Shown piece by piece: positions 2,705-25,536 of a stretch of 25,536 nt of DNA (position 1 is its first letter; each line of letters starts with the position of its first letter). The notes beneath the pieces are model-generated. The model made no database searches, was not told where the DNA came from, and saw only the letters and a list, made by a program, of their open reading frames with translations. Both the position numbers and the translations under genes were made by a program. The DNA is from a virus, in the IMG/VR virus record IMGVR_UViG_3300032087_001306, positions 1 to 25,536 of that record, one strand, 5' to 3'.

Positions 2705-3071
2705 CACCGTGTTCTCTCAATACGTCAGACTCCGAGCCGCAGACCATAGAGGTATGGGAGAGTGCTACACGTGTGGGGCCGTACGCCACTGGTCCGAAGT
2801 CGACGCGGGGCACTTCATGAGTCGGGCTTGTATGTCGACTCGATGGGACGAGAAGAACGTTCAATTCCAGTGCAAGAAGTGCAACGGCTTCCGGTCTGGA
2901 GAACAGTTCCTTTTCTCACAGCACCTTGACTCCGACTATGGAGAGGGCACCGCAGACGGTCTATACATCAAATCGAAACAGACCTACAAGCATACCCCGC
3001 AAGAGTTGGAGACCATGTACCGCCACTATAAGAGACTCGTCGATGAAATCAGAAGCACGAAGGGACTTTGA
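2688..3071 (+). CDS. NinG-like recombination endonuclease (Rap family)
   Basis: The ATG at 2688 gives 127 residues; the longer open frame upstream is a shadow of the preceding gene. It has CYTC (Cys26, Cys29), then DAGHFMSRACMSTRW with His42, and QCKKCN (Cys62, Cys65). These are the paired zinc ligands and the central His of the lambda NinG/Rap family, close to the HNH fold. NinG/Rap cuts branched DNA and helps recombination. The following FSQHLDSDYGEGTADGLYI also fits the family. It overlaps the previous gene by 17 bases. A role in resolving recombination or replication intermediates is inferred from the family. Confidence 0.85.
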   Translation: MVKKIDTVFSQYVRLRAADHRGMGECYTCGAVRHWSEVDAGHFMSRACMSTRWDEKNVQFQCKKCNGFRSGEQFLFSQHLDSDYGEGTADGLYIKSKQTYKHTPQELETMYRHYKRLVDEIRSTKGL

Positions 3072-3528
3072 TTTGTGGTTCGTGGAGCACTACGACGAGC
3101 TTGTTCTTATGGCTCGCAAGTTGCACCGCGACGCATCAGACCTCGTGCACCACACATACCTCGAATGCGTCATGAGAATACGACGCAACGACGAGGTAGT
3201 GAGAAACCTACCCGGATACTTCCACCGCGCTATGTGGAACGGAAGCATTGGGAAATTTCGCAGGCTCTACAAGATAGAAGACGCCACACCGGAACCGCAG
3301 GTGTCACACTACGACCTCTCCGAAGCGATACGCAAAGAAGAGGCCCTGATCATGGCGGACCATCTGGCATGGTTTGATAGAACCGTTCTCTCTTTATATC
3401 TTGACGGGTGGAGTATGGCCGAGGTCTCACGAGAAAGCGGTATCAACGTCTCCACCTTGTACGAGTCCATCTCACAATCTAAAAAGAAACTTCGTCGTGT
3501 TATTCGTCAACGCACACCTCAGAGCTGA
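3043..3528 (+). CDS. ECF-like RNA polymerase sigma factor of phage origin
   Basis: The ATG at 3043 gives 161 residues. Region 2 features are visible at residues 13-70: an aromatic helix FVEHYDELVLMARKL, the core-binding-like DASDLVHHTYLECVMRI (compare DLVQETFLR of ECF sigmas), and PGYFHRAMWNGSIGKFRR. Region 4 is at about 105-155: FDRTVLSLYLDGWSMAEVSR, then ESGINVSTLYESISQSKKKL, a helix-turn-helix. Sigma-1.1 and region 3 are absent, as in ECF/group-4 sigmas. It probably redirects host RNA polymerase to phage promoters and so could time the late genes; that target is inference. The gene starts 29 bases inside the NinG-like gene. Confidence 0.8.
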   Translation: MKSEARRDFDLWFVEHYDELVLMARKLHRDASDLVHHTYLECVMRIRRNDEVVRNLPGYFHRAMWNGSIGKFRRLYKIEDATPEPQVSHYDLSEAIRKEEALIMADHLAWFDRTVLSLYLDGWSMAEVSRESGINVSTLYESISQSKKKLRRVIRQRTPQS

Positions 3529-4963: not shown

Positions 4964-5316
4964 CAGAGTTAGACATCAAAGACCCAAAAAAGATGGCCAT
5001 GATTGAAGCCCTCACCAAAGCGTTGGGGGTGGTCAAGATGGCTTGTGAATCGGTGGGTATCTCAAGGCAGACCCATTACAACTGGCTCAAAGACGACGCG
5101 GCATACAAGGCCGCCTGTGACAACCTTCCGGAAGTCGTGTTGGACTTTGCCGAGCACCACTTGCACAAGCTCATCTCACAAGGCAACCCAGCCGCAACTA
5201 TCTTCCTTCTCAAGACAAAGGGCAAAGGGAGAGGCTATATCGAGCGTCAAGAGATAGAGGTGGCCGAAAAGAAGCCGCTCTCGTGGTTCGTGTCTGACGA
5301 CTCCTCGGTGTCATGA
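4933..5316 (+). CDS. terS: Terminase small subunit
   Basis: The ATG at 4933 gives 127 residues; the longer upstream frame overlaps the ParB-like gene. Residues about 22-55 (MIEALTKALGVVKMACESVG, then ISRQTHYNWLKDD) are a helix-turn-helix of the small-terminase type. They are followed by DFAEHHLHKLISQGNPAATI, then FLLKTKGKGRGY, the oligomerisation and tail region typical of Bacteroidetes-phage TerS. The complex recognises phage DNA and loads TerL. The position two genes upstream of terL supports the call. It overlaps the next gene by 4 bases. Confidence 0.85.
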   Translation: MQALRQDDTLTELDIKDPKKMAMIEALTKALGVVKMACESVGISRQTHYNWLKDDAAYKAACDNLPEVVLDFAEHHLHKLISQGNPAATIFLLKTKGKGRGYIERQEIEVAEKKPLSWFVSDDSSVS

Positions 5317-5510
5317 GCAAGAAACTTGAACGCCGTCACTCACGGGAGGTCTTGGAAAAGATGCTAAGTGAACGAGGCATCGCCTACACCGTGCCCAGCC
5401 CCGGATGCTACAAGATAAACGGGTACGTGTACCACCATTGGTCGAAGGGCTATACGAAGGGAGGTTGGACATACTACGAGAGCCACAAGGAGTTTTTGGA
5501 TAGCTTGTGA
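5313..5510 (+). CDS. Hypothetical 65-aa protein between the terminase subunits
   Basis: The ATG at 5313 overlaps the terS stop and the end overlaps the GTG start of terL, so the gene is locked into the packaging operon. The product has a basic N-terminal helix (MSKKLERRHSREVLEKMLSE) then an aromatic, beta-like half (CYKINGYVYHHWSKGYTKGG). I do not recognise it. It may be an accessory packaging factor or an inserted host-interaction gene. Confidence 0.7.
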   Translation: MSKKLERRHSREVLEKMLSERGIAYTVPSPGCYKINGYVYHHWSKGYTKGGWTYYESHKEFLDSL

Positions 5511-6661
5511 GGCAACCCGCCACATACTACCACGTCAAGAGTAGCCCGGCCAAGATTCAGGTACACCAAGGCGGCACGCGATCGGGCAAGACCTACTCCA
5601 TCCTCACGGCTCTCATCGAGCTATGCCACCGCAACGAAAACTCCGGAGCGGTCATCACAATAGCCCGAAAGACCTTCCCCGCTATCCGGGCCTCTGTTAT
5701 GCGGGACTTCTTCGAGATACTCGAAAGGGAGGACATCTACAACGTAAACCTTCACAATAAGTCAGAGGCTACCTACGTGCTGTTTGGAAACCTCGTCGAG
5801 TTCATCTCAGTCGACCAGCCTCAGAAGGTAAGGGGCCGCAAGCGTGACATCCTCTTCGTGAACGAAGCCAACGAACTCACCCTTGAAGACTGGCGGCAAC
5901 TTATGCTCCGAACTACCGGACGGGCCATCATCGACTACAACCCCTCGGACGAATTCCACTGGATATATGACCACATCCTCACACGCGACGATCATGAGTT
6001 CTTCAGAACAACCTACAAAGACAACCCGTTTCTCTCCTCCGGCACCGTCAAAGAAATCGAACGACTACAAGAAGCCGACCCCGACTACTGGAGGGTCTAC
6101 GGCTTGGGCGAGCGCGGCGTCTCCCGTGCCACTATTCTCACGCATTGGAAGACAGTACCCCAAGTCCCCGAAGGGTGGAAGCTCCTCAACCTCGGCCTCG
6201 ACTTCGGATATACCAACGACCCCACCTGTATTGTAAAGGTGTACACCGACGGCCACGGGTTCTGTCTGGATGAGGTGTGCTACGCCACCGGACTCACGAA
6301 TGCGGCCATAGCTCAGACCCTACGAGACGCGGAGGTAGGGAAGGCTATGATCGTAGCTGACTCGGCCGAGCCAAAGTCCATCGACGAGATACACGGCCAC
6401 GGGTTCAACATACACCCCGCAAGGAAAGGCCCGGACTCGGTGCGGAGTGGTATAGACTTTCTCCGGTCTCGTCCTCTGCTCATCACAGAGCGAAGCGTGA
6501 ACGGAATCAAAGAACTCCGAAACTACAAGTACAAGGAGGACAAGAACGGACGACAACTCAACGAACCCGTCGACGCCTTCAACCACTTCGTGGACGCCTC
6601 ACGCTATGCCGTGACGTGGAACCAGACGAACCCCAACTTCGGGCAATACGCCCTCGGATAA
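5507..6661 (+). CDS. terL: Terminase large subunit, ATPase and nuclease
   Basis: A GTG at 5507, overlapping the previous TGA, starts this 384-residue protein. Walker A is VHQGGTRSGKT (residues 19-29) and Walker B is DILFVNEANE (114-123), with Asn-Glu in place of the usual Asp-Glu. The C-terminal RNase H-like nuclease has its acidic residues in LLNLGLDFGYTNDPT (about 225-240), AMIVADSAEP (about 277-286) and EPVDAFNHFVDASRYA (about 352-367). It powers DNA translocation into the prohead and cuts the concatemer, working with TerS and the portal. The compact length fits the Terminase_3/PBSX-type family. Confidence 0.95.
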   Translation: MRQPATYYHVKSSPAKIQVHQGGTRSGKTYSILTALIELCHRNENSGAVITIARKTFPAIRASVMRDFFEILEREDIYNVNLHNKSEATYVLFGNLVEFISVDQPQKVRGRKRDILFVNEANELTLEDWRQLMLRTTGRAIIDYNPSDEFHWIYDHILTRDDHEFFRTTYKDNPFLSSGTVKEIERLQEADPDYWRVYGLGERGVSRATILTHWKTVPQVPEGWKLLNLGLDFGYTNDPTCIVKVYTDGHGFCLDEVCYATGLTNAAIAQTLRDAEVGKAMIVADSAEPKSIDEIHGHGFNIHPARKGPDSVRSGIDFLRSRPLLITERSVNGIKELRNYKYKEDKNGRQLNEPVDAFNHFVDASRYAVTWNQTNPNFGQYALG

Positions 6662-6681
6662 AAAAAAATCAATCTTTTTTT
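6660..6681 (+). terminator. A-tract/T-tract hairpin after terL, possible terminator
   Basis: Right after the terL stop, a run of A residues (6660-6668) can pair with a run of T residues (6675-6681) across ATCAAT-type loop bases. Such A/T-only hairpins are weak, but they can end transcripts when followed by U, and more T residues follow. The stretch could equally be an AT-rich upstream element of the promoter at 6691. Confidence 0.35.
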
Positions 6682-6690
6682 CTTTTTTGC

Positions 6691-6720
6691 TTGGATAATG
6701 AAAAAAGAGTCGTATATTTG
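6691..6720 (+). promoter_or_regulatory. Bacteroidota-type promoter P1 (TTG-N19-TATATTTG)
   Basis: TTG at 6691-6693, exactly 19 bases, then TATATTTG at 6713-6720. This matches the Bacteroidota housekeeping consensus TTG-N~19-TAnnTTTG. The promoter at 24002 has the same spacing and shares the block AGTCGTATATTTG and much of the spacer. The start codon it serves (6747) is 26 bases downstream, leaving a short leader rich in A and C. Confidence 0.85.
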
Positions 6721-6746
6721 AGACATCAAACAAAGCAAAACACACC

Positions 6747-6950
6747 ATGAACAACGCCATCACCATCCAAGCTCAAGTAACTGTTTACAACAAAACTTAC
6801 ACCATCAGTTTTGATAATGCCAAAGGACTCGATCTATGGACAAAAGAAGCTGGCTTCCCTGAAGCCTACGGAGGACGCAAGTCTTTTGTTGAGTTGACTA
6901 CTACACGCGACGCAGAGTTTTTCGGAATTATTGATTGTGTTAAAGCCTAA
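6747..6950 (+). CDS. Hypothetical 67-aa protein with its own promoter and terminator (moron-like)
   Basis: The product (MNNAITIQAQVTVYNKTYTI, then SFDNAKGLDLW) looks like a small beta-rich domain with no signal peptide, membrane segment or Cys pair. I do not recognise it. Its DNA is visibly more AT-rich than the flanking terL and tail genes. It lies between a dedicated promoter (6691-6720) and a strong intrinsic terminator (6975-6998). That layout, inside the structural block, is the classic description of a moron: an independently expressed accessory gene. Candidate roles such as superinfection exclusion or host takeover are not shown by the sequence. Confidence 0.75.
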   Translation: MNNAITIQAQVTVYNKTYTISFDNAKGLDLWTKEAGFPEAYGGRKSFVELTTTRDAEFFGIIDCVKA

Positions 6951-6974
6951 ACACGAAACGCAAAAACGCATTAC

Positions 6975-6998
6975 AGGAGCCAACAGGCTCCTTTTTTT
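6975..6998 (+). terminator. Strong rho-independent terminator
   Basis: The perfect stem AGGAGCC (6975-6981) / GGCTCCT (6986-6992) with loop AACA is followed by seven T residues. This is a textbook intrinsic terminator 24 bases after the 67-aa gene. It should stop transcription from P1 before the tail genes unless there is antitermination. Confidence 0.95.
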
Positions 6999-7013
6999 AT
7001 GCCCTAACTTACC

Positions 7014-7043
7014 ACCTGAGATATTTACCCCTTTTAACTCATT
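7014..7043 (+). promoter_or_regulatory. Candidate phage-specific promoter/late element (copy 1)
   Basis: ACCTGAG (7014-7020), 14 bases, TAACTCATT (7035-7043), directly before the first tail gene (ATG 7049) and after the terminator. The same two blocks with a 15-base spacer occur at 16516-16546 before the scaffold gene. I found no host-type promoter here, yet the tail operon needs one downstream of the terminator. With only 5 bases to the ATG, a promoter here would make a leaderless or nearly leaderless mRNA, so a translation-related role is also possible. Confidence 0.4.
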
Positions 7044-7048
7044 CAGAT

Positions 7049-7702
7049 ATGGAGCTACGACTGCCCTCATCGTACGAAGACCTCACCCTACGACACCTCC
7101 AAGTCTTGGAGACATCACAAGACCCCATCAACCGGGTACAGGTGGTGACAGGGAAAACGTTTGCTGAGCTTCGCAAGATGCCTCAAGCCTTAATCGTTGA
7201 GGCTGACGCACACCTGACGGCCCTATGCAAAGCCGAGATAAACAGGCACCAACCTATCATCGAACTCGATGGGGTAGAGTACGGCTTCATCCCCGACTGG
7301 GAGTCTTTTACGGCTGGGGAGTGGATTGACATGGAAACCTATACCGGGGACTTTTGGAAGGCGGCTCATAAAGCTATGGCCGTCCTCTACCGTCCTATCG
7401 ACCGGAAGTGGGGCGACAAGTACACCATCAAACCGTACACAGCCAAAGAGGACGCCTCGGTGTTTTTGAATATGCCCGCGCCTCTCGTCTCCGGTGCGTT
7501 GCTTTTTTTTTGGACTACCGAACAAGAACTTCATCTCACTTTGCGGTCCTCTTTGATTCAGAAGGCGACGGAGGTGACGCATTTTTTGAGAAGTGGCAGT
7601 GGTACCCCGTCCTCTATTCCTTGGCTGGTGAGGACATACTACAAGTGGAAGCGGTTACTAGGCTCACGGTGGGCCACGTCTTCACCCACCTCGCATTCAT
7701 GA
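7049..7702 (+). CDS. Tail assembly chaperone, gpG-like zero-frame product
   Basis: A 217-residue product in the unshifted frame. It opens with MELRLPSSYEDLTLRHLQVL, then IDMETYTGDFWKAAHKAMAV and LYRP at about residues 95-118, a pattern of Bacteroidetes-phage tail chaperones. The segment LVSGALLFFWTTEQELHLTL is a likely helix. After the slippery site at 7582-7588 the reading becomes low-quality (RSGSGTPSSIPWLVRTYYKW), as expected for a gpG-type tail past a programmed frameshift. It lies upstream of the tail terminator and tape measure, as gpG/gpGT do. It would bind tape-measure protein and tail-tube subunits during tail assembly. Confidence 0.75.
   Translation: MELRLPSSYEDLTLRHLQVLETSQDPINRVQVVTGKTFAELRKMPQALIVEADAHLTALCKAEINRHQPIIELDGVEYGFIPDWESFTAGEWIDMETYTGDFWKAAHKAMAVLYRPIDRKWGDKYTIKPYTAKEDASVFLNMPAPLVSGALLFFWTTEQELHLTLRSSLIQKATEVTHFLRSGSGTPSSIPWLVRTYYKWKRLLGSRWATSSPTSHS
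7582..7588 (+). promoter_or_regulatory. Slippery heptamer T TTT TTG for -1 ribosomal frameshift
   Basis: In the chaperone frame the codons read CAT TTT TTG, so T TTT TTG fits the X XXY YYZ rule for a -1 shift. Slipping joins ...EVTHFL to EKWQWYPVLYSLAGEDILQV without a break. A 6-bp GTCCTC/GAGGAC stem (7609-7635) lies downstream, farther away than usual. A second homopolymer, T9 at 7503-7511, is an alternative shift site. Confidence 0.65.
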
Positions 7703-7758
7703 AAGACCTCGACATACGCAGGAAGCAAGAAGAGGCCCAAGCTAAAGCTCGCAAATGA
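7588..7758 (+). CDS. Tail chaperone T-domain, expressed by -1 frameshift (gpGT-like)
   Basis: The second frame is open from 7408 to the TGA at 7756-7758, but only its 3' part looks like real protein: EKWQWYPVLYSLAGEDILQV, EAVTRLTVGHVFTHLAFMKD, then a charged end EEAQAKARK. This is the typical T-domain of Bacteroidetes-phage tail chaperones (aromatic start, LAxxDI, a helical Leu/Phe segment, charged tail). It has no good start codon of its own nearby, so it is best read as the extension of the gene at 7049, giving a fusion of about 236 residues. The stop overlaps the ATG of the tail-terminator gene. A sequencing indel in a T run would produce the same picture and must be excluded. Confidence 0.65.
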   Translation, partial: EKWQWYPVLYSLAGEDILQVEAVTRLTVGHVFTHLAFMKDLDIRRKQEEAQAKARK

Positions 7759-9404
7759 TCACATTCAACAACATCGTCACCAAGTTTCAGGAGTTCTGCG
7801 ACAATCACTTCTTCATTGAGACGTTCTCGTATGGCTCTCCTGCCGACGTCGACTTGTCGAAGTTTGAAAGGTACCCCCTCCTGCATCTCGTCTATACGGG
7901 TGGCGACTTCAACACACCACGAACCAAGACGTACAACCTTGAGGTGTATATCCTTTCCGTACCTCCGGCGGAAGCCGATAAGGTAGGCTACCAAAAGGAA
8001 AGCATAAGCGACGCGGAACAGGTAGCCGAGGACATCTTGGCCGACATCCAGAACGGAGGTAACATCTTCCAGTTTGGCTACCACTACGATCTCGTCAACG
8101 CCTCAGTGACGCCCCTCGAAGAGGAGAAGTCTAACGCGCTGGCCGGGTGTCTCCTCGACCTCGCCATCTCGGTACCGTACTCCTACGACTCGTGCAACGC
8201 ACCTCTCGAAGGGGTAGAGCCGGAAGGTAGCGGGTACCCCTCATTCAAGGCACGGGGCCTCCTACGGGTACGAGAAGAGGACGGGACGCCCGACGTATTG
8301 AGCGTGGCCACCATCAACGTCCCGGACGGCTCACTGACAGACAACGGAGACGGAGAGATAACCCTAGCTTTCGGAGCGGCCGACGGAACGCGCCTTGTGC
8401 AGACAGTCAAGAACGTAAGCGGAGTCGAACTCACCAAGGGGACTCCCGTTCATGCCGTTGTCGATGGGGCAGAGGGGAACCTTGCGTATGTGATCGCGGC
8501 ACGGGCAGACACCCCCTCGGCTATGCCTGCCACCTTTGTCTTGAACGAGACCCTAGCAGACGAAGCCGAAGGGGAGGCTATCATTACCGGACTCATTCAA
8601 GGGGTAGCTACCGACGCCTTCACTGCGGGCGACGTGCTGTATGTGGGTGAGACGGGTGGATATACGAACGTCAAGCCGACGGGTACCAACCTCATCCAGA
8701 ACCTCGGTATCGTTTTGAAGTCCCACGCCTCGAATGGGTCGGGCATCGTGTATGGGGCGGGGCGTTCTAATGACGTGCCCAACCTTGCCGACGGACACTT
8801 CTTCATAGGCTCGGCTACCAACACCCAAGAGAGCACCTACGGCCTACCCACGTCCGACCCTACCGACGGAGAGACCTTGGTGTATAGCTCCTCCAGTGAC
8901 GCCTTTGTAGGGGGCTATCCTACTTCTAACGGACAACAATCGACATTCACAGCCGCCTACACCTCATCGACACCCTTGACATGGACCACTACGGGAGGAC
9001 TAGAAACGGAGTTCGGCACGTATCTCTCCGGAGACCTTGCAATAACTCAAGCACTACGGGCGGGCTTCTCTATGGGTCTTAATAACTTCGGAGAGGAGTT
9101 TTTGGCCCAACCTCTGTCCGTGGGGACTACGTTTACCATATCCTACACGGTAGACGTCTACGCCCCTACCGGAACCCTCGGTTCTTTTGGACTAGTGGGC
9201 ACCGGGTTTTTTCCTAGTGCCGGGGCTTTGAATACAATCATTGGCAACGATGCGTGGACGACGCATACGCACACGACAACCACACAAACGGTGTCGTTCT
9301 GGCAGTTGGCGAATACGCTTGTTCTACAAGCGAACATTGTCATCAACCCGGGCACCATACAATACAAGAACCAGTCTCTCACCATAACGATTGACCATGC
9401 ATAA
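7755..9404 (+). CDS. Tail terminator/completion domain fused to fibre-like C-terminus
   Basis: 549 residues. The first 140 or so (MITFNNIVTKFQEFCDNHFF, FERYPLLHLVYTGG, YNLEVYILSVPP, AEQVAEDILADI) match the tail-terminator/completion family that normally ends near residue 140-150. The chain then continues into a repeat-like beta domain (about 220-340: VELTKGTPVHAVVDG, GLIQGVATDAFTAGDVLYVG, NLIQNLGIVLKSHASNGSGI). This form is common in phage fibre, head-fibre and appendage proteins. The rest (350-549) is Gly/Ser/Thr-rich beta, including HTHTTTTQTVSF. So it probably both closes the tail tube and carries an exposed appendage or receptor-binding part. The frame is unbroken and nothing suggests two genes. 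Confidence 0.7.
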   Translation: MITFNNIVTKFQEFCDNHFFIETFSYGSPADVDLSKFERYPLLHLVYTGGDFNTPRTKTYNLEVYILSVPPAEADKVGYQKESISDAEQVAEDILADIQNGGNIFQFGYHYDLVNASVTPLEEEKSNALAGCLLDLAISVPYSYDSCNAPLEGVEPEGSGYPSFKARGLLRVREEDGTPDVLSVATINVPDGSLTDNGDGEITLAFGAADGTRLVQTVKNVSGVELTKGTPVHAVVDGAEGNLAYVIAARADTPSAMPATFVLNETLADEAEGEAIITGLIQGVATDAFTAGDVLYVGETGGYTNVKPTGTNLIQNLGIVLKSHASNGSGIVYGAGRSNDVPNLADGHFFIGSATNTQESTYGLPTSDPTDGETLVYSSSSDAFVGGYPTSNGQQSTFTAAYTSSTPLTWTTTGGLETEFGTYLSGDLAITQALRAGFSMGLNNFGEEFLAQPLSVGTTFTISYTVDVYAPTGTLGSFGLVGTGFFPSAGALNTIIGNDAWTTHTHTTTTQTVSFWQLANTLVLQANIVINPGTIQYKNQSLTITIDHA

Positions 9405-9570
9405 CCCTTTTGAATTGACGCCGGAAGAGCGGGCTACGACGACGGGCAAAGAACAACTCGCAATGTTCAGCCGCTTGGTTGATTTCGTCAACGCTCGCCT
9501 GAGCGAGATAGAGACCCTCCAAGCCGAGGTAGAAGCACTCAAGAATCCCGAATCATCAAATCCTAAATAG
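9397..9570 (+). CDS. Small coiled-coil protein (57 aa)
   Basis: The ATG at 9397 overlaps the end of the previous gene. The product MHNPFELTPEERATTTGKEQ is followed by a heptad-like helix (LVDFVNARLSEIETLQAEVE) and a short polar end. The function is unknown; it may be a chaperone or trimerisation partner for the preceding fibre-like protein, judging by position only. The following ATG abuts the TAG stop. Confidence 0.7.
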   Translation: MHNPFELTPEERATTTGKEQLAMFSRLVDFVNARLSEIETLQAEVEALKNPESSNPK

Positions 9571-23919: not shown

Positions 23920-23941
23920 CTTTTGATTCTTTTTCAGCGAA

Positions 23942-23971
23942 GGCCCTCCGAAACGTCGGGGGGTCTTTTTT
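23942..23971 (+). terminator. Rho-independent terminator at the end of the lysis block
   Basis: The stem GGCCCTCCG (23942-23950) pairs with CGGGGGGTC (23957-23965) with some G-T pairs, loop AAACGT, then TTTTTT (23966-23971). It ends the late transcript and isolates the early promoter at 24002. The stretch 23920-24062 holds only this terminator and the promoter. Confidence 0.9.
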
Positions 23972-24001
23972 GTGTAAATGAAAAAAAAATTTGAAGAATG
24001 C

Positions 24002-24031
24002 TTGACAAATGAAAATTTAGTCGTATATTTG
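24002..24031 (+). promoter_or_regulatory. Bacteroidota-type promoter P2 (TTG-N19-TATATTTG), early
   Basis: TTG at 24002-24004, 19 bases, TATATTTG at 24024-24031. It shares GCTTG, AATGAAAA and AGTCGTATATTTG with P1 at 6691, plus a similar A/C-rich leader. It is the first promoter after the lysis terminator, so it likely drives the early genes across the window ends. Because the box ends at 24031, an ATG at 24036 is too close to the start site. The ATG at 24063 is the likely start of the first gene. Confidence 0.85.
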
Positions 24032-24278: not shown

Positions 24279-24298
24279 CGGGGGGTTTCGGCCCCCCC
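24279..24298 (+). terminator. G6/C6 hairpin after the first early gene
   Basis: GGGGGG (24280-24285), loop TTTCGG, CCCCCC (24292-24297). It is very stable, but has no T tract after it. It may be a pause/partial terminator or mRNA stabiliser. It lies in the 43-base gap before the next small gene. Confidence 0.6.
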
Positions 24299-24315: not shown

Positions 24316-24465
24316 ATGCAAAACAAAAGCACCAAAGGCAAGGACCTCGCGTGGGACATTGCTACCCGCCTCCGCGGGAACGAGTTTAAAGACATGACGC
24401 TCGCAGAGATTGACGACTTCCGGTCAGAGATGGCCAAGTTCCTAGACCTCAAAAAAGAATGGTAA
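24316..24465 (+). CDS. Small early protein (49 aa), unknown
   Basis: The ATG at 24316 is followed by MQNKSTKGKDLAWDIATRLR, GNEFKDMTLAEIDDFRSEMA and KFLDLKKEW. It is a charged two-helix protein of unknown function. The TAA overlaps the next ATG (TAATG), so it is coupled to the downstream gene. Confidence 0.65.
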   Translation: MQNKSTKGKDLAWDIATRLRGNEFKDMTLAEIDDFRSEMAKFLDLKKEW

Positions 24466-24635
24466 TGCTCAAGCCCAACGGAATCTCACACACGGTCTAC
24501 CCAGACCAACCAGCGGAAGACTTCAACCAATGGTCCGCGCATATCACATCTCAAGAGATCATCAAAGACGCGGACGATTTCAAGCGTAAGTTTGACGCGC
24601 TGTGGTCTGACTTCAAAGAATCAATCAAAAGATAA
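24465..24635 (+). CDS. Small early protein (56 aa), unknown
   Basis: The ATG at 24465 shares an A with the previous TAA, and its own TAA overlaps the next ATG. The product MLKPNGISHTVYPDQPAEDF is followed by NQWSAHITSQEIIKDADDFK and a helical end RKFDALWSDFKESIKR. I do not recognise it. Confidence 0.65.
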   Translation: MLKPNGISHTVYPDQPAEDFNQWSAHITSQEIIKDADDFKRKFDALWSDFKESIKR

Positions 24636-24972: not shown

Positions 24973-25383
24973 ATGGCACAAGCCAAAATTTCGCGGATCG
25001 AACCCGCAAACCCTCCAACGTGGACCTCGAACCGAGACGGGTCTACCATGTATGCGTACAACGTAGACCTCGACGACGGAACGTCCGGCGACGTCAACTG
25101 CAAAAGCCCGAACAAATGGAAGGTAGGAGATGAGGTAGAATACACTTCAAAGTCTACCCACCACGGGAACAAACTCAGCCTGTCTACTCCGGGCTTCTCT
25201 GGCGGCTTCTCAGGAGGCAAACAAGACCCCGACTCAACGAAAGGTATCATCGCTTCGTGGGCCGTCGGGATCGCTATGCAGGTAGCCCCGGTCGAGGCAC
25301 CGAACTACGACCAACAGGTAATGCAGTACGCCCGGCTCGCTCTCGAAGCTCGTCGGCAAATCAAGAACGAAGTCGAACCGTGA
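24973..25383 (+). CDS. OB-fold-like protein, possible ssDNA-binding (complete copy)
   Basis: 136 residues. The N-terminal half is a beta-rich module: PTWTSNRDGSTMYAYNVDLD, DGTSGDVNCKSPNKWKVGDE, VEYTSKSTHHGNKLSLS. It reads as an OB-fold in which 'W ... M-Y-x-Y-x-V-x-[LM]-D-D-G-x-x-G-x-x-x-x-K' resembles short phage ssDNA-binding proteins of Bacteroidetes phages. A Gly/Phe-rich linker (GFSGGFSGGKQDPDS) and a C-terminal helix QQVMQYARLALEARRQ follow. If correct it would protect ssDNA near the replication or recombination genes that follow after circularisation. It carries the divergent repeat and differs from the left copy by Leu/Phe and Ser/Ala. Confidence 0.7.
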   Translation: MAQAKISRIEPANPPTWTSNRDGSTMYAYNVDLDDGTSGDVNCKSPNKWKVGDEVEYTSKSTHHGNKLSLSTPGFSGGFSGGKQDPDSTKGIIASWAVGIAMQVAPVEAPNYDQQVMQYARLALEARRQIKNEVEP

Positions 25384-25536
25384 TGTGGTTCAACTCGACA
25401 CCCAACCATGAGGGGTGGTATCTATGCGCGTGGCCTATGGGGAAGTCTTACATCTACTCCGTAGGCAAGTGGAACGGCAAAGGATGGGAGACCTCCATGA
25501 CGGCCGAACCGCATATCTGGCAAGAGATAACCAGCC
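25080..25536. repeat. Right copy of the 457-bp divergent terminal repeat
   Basis: Aligns without gaps to bases 1-457 with 20 substitutions. It includes the 3' part of the OB-fold-like gene and the 5' part of the Trp-rich gene. The window stops inside it, so the full extent of any duplication cannot be seen. Confidence 0.9.
25383..25536 (+). CDS. Trp-rich hypothetical protein, 3'-truncated by window end
   Basis: The ATG at 25383 overlaps the OB-fold-like stop (TGATG). The 51 residues seen are identical to residues 1-51 of the protein at 304-519; the three base differences are synonymous. The remaining codons lie beyond the window. It is not a pseudogene. Confidence 0.75.
   Translation, partial: MWFNSTPNHEGWYLCAWPMGKSYIYSVGKWNGKGWETSMTAEPHIWQEITS

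Follow-up and report, generated by a model that had tools for sequence, protein, structure and literature searches.

A moron-like cassette with a recurring promoter-terminator frame and changing small genes at the terL-tail junction of Bacteroidota-type phages

Integron cassette arrays hold exchangeable small genes stacked at one site, and PeSL cassettes of T4-type phages have reportedly been described by Arbiol in 2010 and by Comeau in 2014. As described in PMC4503421, conserved units of an early promoter and a stem-loop flank small, non-essential genes of T4-type phages and are associated with gene shuffling. Morons, as defined previously (PMC1524935, PMC2629481), are genes inserted between neighbors that are adjacent in related phages, flanked by their own promoter and terminator and deviating in base composition; among lambdoid and P22-like examples, the ant moron shows variable content at a single late-operon site. 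Phage defense-gene loci are small, high-turnover loci between two conserved phage genes and carry systems of 1-5 kb with recognizable defense genes. Here, we describe a small cassette between the terminase and tail genes of an uncultured virus and compare it with these systems. The DNA analyzed is the whole 25,536-nucleotide IMG/VR record IMGVR_UViG_3300032087_001306, hereafter the window. Its TerL is nearest to that of Bacteroides phages (41%), and its ends (1-457 and 25080-25536) overlap over 457 bp with 96% identity, inexactly; the genome is probably circular or permuted, the two ends having been assembled from population members that differ slightly.

A sequence-only reading of the window had proposed a moron-like unit at 6691-6998, made of an AT-richer 67-codon gene, a TTG-N19-TATATTTG promoter and an intrinsic terminator with a 7-bp stem and seven T residues. 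All of these elements are present (Table 1). The spacer between the two promoter boxes is exactly 19 nt, and the terminator stem reads AGGAGCC-AACA-GGCTCCT (6975-6992), followed by six T that become seven with the last base of the stem. In RNA folding, the 36-nt terminator stretch reached -14.9 kcal/mol (z -5.2, with 0 shuffles as good), and the cassette leader was without structure. The Bacteroidetes housekeeping promoter consists of a -33 TTTG and a -7 TANNTTTG, with the start site 4-5 nt downstream (PMC6847099); the -7 box of the cassette fits this consensus, while its -33 box reads CTTG where the majority of relatives have TTTG. With a promoter of this type, transcription is predicted to leave a leader of about 22 nt. 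No sigma-70-type promoter was found within 5500-9500. The GC content of the ORF is 42.2%, compared with 55.9% in terL, 53.4% in the tail gene, 38.8% in the whole insert and 53.0% in the window, and GC at third codon positions is 0.42 in the cargo ORF vs 0.72 in terL. To judge from this anatomy, the gene would be expressed independently of its neighbors.

Table 1. Features of the terL-tail junction and of the early region of the window.
Feature	Position	Strand	Remarks
terL (terminase large subunit)	5507..6661	+	Terminase_3, Terminase_3C and phrog_2 matches
Whole cassette insert	6662..7014	+	353 bp; junctions set by exact empty/occupied comparison with sister phage L002
-33 element TTG	6691..6693	+	Bacteroidetes consensus TTTG/TANNTTTG (PMC6847099)
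-7 element TATATTTG	6713..6720	+	predicted transcription start near 6725
Cassette leader AGACATCAAACAAAGCAAAACACACC	6721..6746	+	first 14 nt identical in other phages
Cargo gene gp67, 67 aa	6747..6950	+	same-length homologue in L083, 52% identical
Intrinsic terminator	6975..6998	+	7-bp stem, 4-nt loop, T-tract
Post-terminator motif CCCTAACTTA	7001..7010	+	GCCCTAACTTTC in most inserts
Leader of tail gene, 34 nt	7015..7048	+	constant length across the clade's empty sites
Tail-chaperone-like gene	7049..7702, likely frameshift extension to 7758	+	phrog_32199 (function unknown)
Late-block-end terminator, just 5' of early slot	23939..23968	+	23930-23980 folds with -22.8 kcal/mol, z -4.3
Second promoter TTG-N19-TATATTTG	24002..24031	+	putative early promoter
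Early-slot cargo MNLPTQLQGFEEQ..., 69 aa	24063..24272	+	equals terL-tail cargo in L164 and L191
GC hairpin after early-slot cargo	24280..24297	+	without T-tract; z only -1.1

Taken alone, the promoter is compatible with chance: over both strands of the window, 1.1 matches to TTG-N17-23-TANNTTTG are expected, and 3 places have one. A loose terminator scan of the window returned 4 candidates vs 4.1 expected. The significance of the cassette comes instead from comparison, since its promoter and leader recur in relatives, and most relatives lack precisely this insert. On the tail side of the junction, the region 7490-7760 of the tail-chaperone-like gene holds a slippery site, GCTTTTTTTTT, that is invariant in relatives; downstream of it, mean identity in relatives is 53% in the zero frame and 60% in the shifted frame, which suggests a predicted programmed frameshift resembling that of lambda G/GT.

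Three queries retrieved loci with TerL relatives, most of them contig fragments, and in 152 unique loci we measured how far the terL stop codon lies from the next gene. Distances of 34-35 nt were the commonest, in 63 loci, followed by 29-30 nt in 25 loci. In the window and the identical L001, this distance is 387 nt; in the sister phage L002, whose TerL is 99% and tail protein 97% identical to those of the window, and in most other relatives, the gap is 29-51 nt. More specifically, L002 reads GGATAA followed directly by CCTGAGATATTT, and the window has the same two motifs separated by 353 bp, so that the insert starts immediately 3' of the terL stop codon. Another close pair consists of an empty L207 and a filled L217. 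On a TerL DNA tree of 144 TerL-distinct loci, 93 were empty, L002 included, 38 carried cassettes and 13 had short inserts with neither promoter nor terminator. The cassette state changes 24 times on this tree, gains and losses being counted together, and at least 20 of these changes are forced by well-supported branches. The state clusters more strongly than it does under shuffled labels, as expected from the inclusion of near-copies. An invariable presence of the gene, conserved within the tail operon, was the outcome that the sequence-only reading had named as fatal to its proposal; the loci contradict this outcome, and the idea that the cassette is a fixed part of that operon fails. Inserts of 83-162 bp in the same slot (L166, L185, L199, L205, L212, L214 and L227), with neither promoter box nor terminator hairpin, are rich in CACGCA and CCCGTAAA repeats. 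These are possibly another type of element or remnants of cassettes.

What could not be seen from one sequence is that the promoter-terminator frame recurs and the gene inside it is exchanged. The 36 distinct terL-tail inserts hold 51 ORFs, some probably spurious, in about 41 families with a median of 69 aa. A terminal perfect hairpin with at least 7 T closes every one of them; the TANNTTTG promoter box is found in 28, the other 8 having no clear box, and a GCCCTAACTTTC variant follows the terminator in nearly all. The conserved post-terminator motif GCCCTAACTTT has no obvious function. When all 276 pairs among 24 inserts were compared with shuffled controls, identity was 0.82 vs 0.35 for the 3' frame, 0.69 vs 0.42 for the 5' frame, a modest signal, and 0.50 vs 0.36 for the start of the ORF. 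Within the clade of the window, cassettes whose cargos are unrelated have identities of 0.80-0.95 over the 62 nt upstream of the start codon. Conversely, when the same cargo occurs across phage groups, the frames are usually less alike (0.65 for gp67 in the window and L083, 0.70 for L101 and L138). The pair L096 and L089 is an exception, in which leader and cargo agree (ORF 0.91, frame 0.83), and the boundary of frame and cargo is therefore not the swap point in every case. The terminator stems vary from one TerL clade to another, those of L048, L101 and L074 being of the same type as that of the window. In L138, three complete promoter-ORF-terminator units lie in tandem, and their ORFs are homologous to the single cargos of L101 and L048 and to the first cargo of L105. 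A further link between an ORF of L105 and L284 was weak and coiled-coil-like and was discounted.

The exact 22-mer TATNTTTGAGACATCAAACAAA was present in 23 viral stretches. Its slightly looser form, TANNTTTGAGACATCAAACAAA, had one match among bacterial and archaeal genomes totaling 257 billion bases, with about 0.5 expected by chance; this single match, about at chance level and so no guide to the host, is the promoter of a Porphyromonadaceae sigma factor. Besides the terL-tail junction, the 22-mer precedes small genes at terS-terL (L084), at capsid-connector (L082, genes named from their appearance) and, in several phages, in regions of early type. The terS-terL junction of L084 holds a complete promoter-ORF-terminator cassette. 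The corresponding gap of the window has a 65-aa ORF at 5313-5510 without PHROG match.

The protein gp67 was found in only two phages, the window and L083, with dN 0.38 and dS 1.89, the latter near saturation. In five cargo pairs, this one included, dN is well below dS, and the cargo ORFs are by this measure under purifying selection. That the product belongs to no recognized family, as the sequence-only reading had it, agrees with profile searches of Pfam, PHROGs, PADLOC and NCBIfam, which returned no match. An AlphaFold model built from two sequences (pLDDT 74, pTM 0.60, order b-b-a-a-a-b) gave nothing with E below 0.5 by Foldseek against BFVD and PDB, and gp67 matched the PDB by sequence at chance level only. 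Among annotated phages, neither gp67 nor the cassette DNA had a relative, no PADLOC model was matched by gp67 and six other proteins tested, and the other cargos had no convincing family among Pfam and PHROGs profiles.

A second promoter of the same design lies at the other end of the window, in front of an early-type operon, and promoters of this type would be early, to judge from their position. In L086 and L276, the equivalent early promoter and leader are nearly identical to the cassette frame of L048. Relatives of this early slot were compared by anchoring on the conserved gene 24459-24635. The slot is empty in L244, L245, L247 and L257, where the homologue of gene 24316 comes straight after the promoter, and filled in other relatives by an extra gene between the two, the promoter pattern being unrecognized in many of the fetched loci. 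Late and early slots share at least three cargo families. The MNLPTQ cargo is in the late slot of L164 and L191 and in the early slot of the window (24063) and L097, the MELKL cargo is common to both slots (L096/L089), and, less certainly, so is the MFCIT cargo (L105/L291). The gp67 family is likewise common to the two slots: the gene occupies the late slot in the window and occurs also in L083, where the stretch fetched had no detectable relative of the TerL or tail gene of the window.

The hairpins of the two slots are of different kinds. All late-slot hairpins have a T-tract, and it is absent from 7 of the 8 early-slot or early-type hairpins (window, L097, L099, L100, L246, L258, L263, L291), a small sample chosen after looking; L085 and L089 have T-tract hairpins in early-type regions too. 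This difference fits with early transcripts that run on within the early operon and stop before the tail genes. The GC hairpins that follow the first early-type ORF without a T-tract in L246, L263, L291, L097, L099 and L100 often read GGGGGC-TTCG-GCCCCC. Together with the hairpin of the window at 24280-24297, they are perhaps stabilizers of 3' ends or partial attenuators.

Compared with the described systems, the cassette has, judged from its sequence signals, every feature of the moron definition that can be examined here: its two neighbors adjoin each other in L002 and in the majority of the other relatives, its ORF is flanked by a predicted promoter and terminator of its own, and its GC content departs from that of both neighbors. 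Like the ant moron, its slot has variable content at one late-operon site. Unlike lambdoid morons, the cassette has a promoter-leader and terminator that are near-constant within a clade while the cargo changes, its promoter matches the early-type promoter of the same phages, complete units stack in tandem and cargo is shared with an early-operon slot. With PeSL, the cassette has in common a conserved early-type promoter and a stem-loop with shuffled small genes, and the junctions of the L138 array likewise run from stem-loop to early-type promoter. In contrast to T4-type genomes, the record is 25.5 kb and belongs to an unrelated small phage with Bacteroidota promoter boxes, and it usually has a single cassette at one exact late-operon junction instead of many across early regions. 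By this comparison, the cassette is an analogue of PeSL and not a member. The turnover of the slot between two conserved genes resembles that of defense-gene loci, but its content is mostly single ORFs of about 70 aa without recognizable family in a conserved expression frame. Integron arrays share with it the swappable, stacked small genes; unlike these, each unit here has its own promoter and terminator, and no recombination site or dedicated recombinase was found, the record having no match to the tyrosine (PF00589) or serine (PF00239) recombinase profile that would indicate an integrase or resolvase.

We consider it likely that the insert, a self-contained moron, occupies an exchange slot and that its constant ends let phages swap small early genes. 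The 5' end of the cassette would be a copy of the early-operon promoter and leader type of these phages, and upon infection the 67-aa gene would be read early by the housekeeping RNA polymerase of the host, with the terminator barring this transcript from the tail genes up to the onset of late transcription. Because the ends are near-constant within a phage clade and the gene between them differs, they are most likely homology arms, short ones that may serve recombination between phages in one cell; phages would in this way swap, lose or stack cargos from a pool common to the early-operon slot, and the first entry at the terL stop codon was probably illegitimate. Among the products of the window is a NinG/Rap-like junction endonuclease; in lambda, enzymes of this type assist recombination. 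This, together with the missing recombinase and the lack of a consistent duplication at the ends, makes homologous recombination our best guess. A dedicated integron- or transposon-like element, mobilized at its ends by a site-specific recombinase or a transposase, would agree with the precise site at the terL stop codon, with the tandem stacking in L138 and with a 15-bp direct repeat that flanks L145 and L187 only, two loci that share their cargo. The record encodes no such recombinase, however, no transposase was found among the cargo ORFs tested, and the 36 inserts have neither terminal inverted repeats nor, when junction repeats were examined for a transposon model, a consistent target duplication; of the explanations weighed, we regard this as the least probable.

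The absence of consistent target duplications and terminal repeats would equally suit ordinary independent morons, which entered a tolerant site by separate illegitimate insertions and whose frames are alike through a shared functional need for a strong promoter of the early Bacteroidota type, a leader rich in A and an efficient terminator. That TANNTTTG is the host consensus (PMC6847099) and that TerL clades differ in their terminator stems also speak for such an origin. We nevertheless find it unlikely, given that the 22-mer is found in viral stretches and only at chance level in bacterial and archaeal genomes, that the post-terminator motif is kept without obvious function, that the frame follows the phage clade and not the cargo in most pairs, and that homologous cargos sit in different frames and slots. 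Very improbable, in our opinion, is an insert that mainly tunes tail-gene transcription through its terminator and promoter, the protein being secondary; a terminator is indeed in all inserts, but most relatives do without, the cargo ORFs appear to be under purifying selection and the cargos recur in the early slot, which is not upstream of tail genes.

Some points run counter to the exchange-slot reading. The conservation of the frame could stem from a constraint to maintain a strong promoter and leader and not from recombination, and a strong terminator within a structural operon should hamper late transcription. In P22, the ant moron provides a precedent for read-through of a moron by polymerase (PMC2629481). 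A sigma-factor-like protein of the window (2926-3528; phrog_1740, weak Sigma70_r4_2) might direct late transcription. As for a phage-sigma late promoter in the 34-nt tail leader, the two-box pattern sought was absent from the plus strand of the window, this leader included, and we propose no such promoter.

For the function of such a gene, the sequence-only reading had suggested superinfection exclusion or host takeover. That the same promoter also precedes operons of early type favors a role of gp67 in early host takeover or in counter-defense. With cargo that would be read early and no recognizable integrase, such roles are more likely than lysogenic conversion. Tentatively, and with less conviction than for the exchange slot itself, these phages may possess a recombinase-free exchange platform for dozens of tiny early genes, with the promoter-leader and the terminator as handles and, as cargo, proteins directed against the defenses or physiology of the host early in infection. 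Its slots, a proposal we hold just as tentatively, might be the head of the early operon, terL-tail, terS-terL and capsid-connector, with a T-tract in the late ones and usually none in the early ones.

In conclusion, the terL-tail site looks like a standard docking slot for trading tiny genes among Bacteroidota-type phages. Empty and filled sites come in matched form, one site takes dozens of unrelated cargos, and a given cargo appears in different slots. This amounts to a population-level experiment, in which the long-standing question of the acquisition and trade of tiny orphan genes by phages can be tested directly. The promoter-leader or the terL-tail gap also offers a search handle for candidate early host-takeover or counter-defense proteins in uncultured phages.
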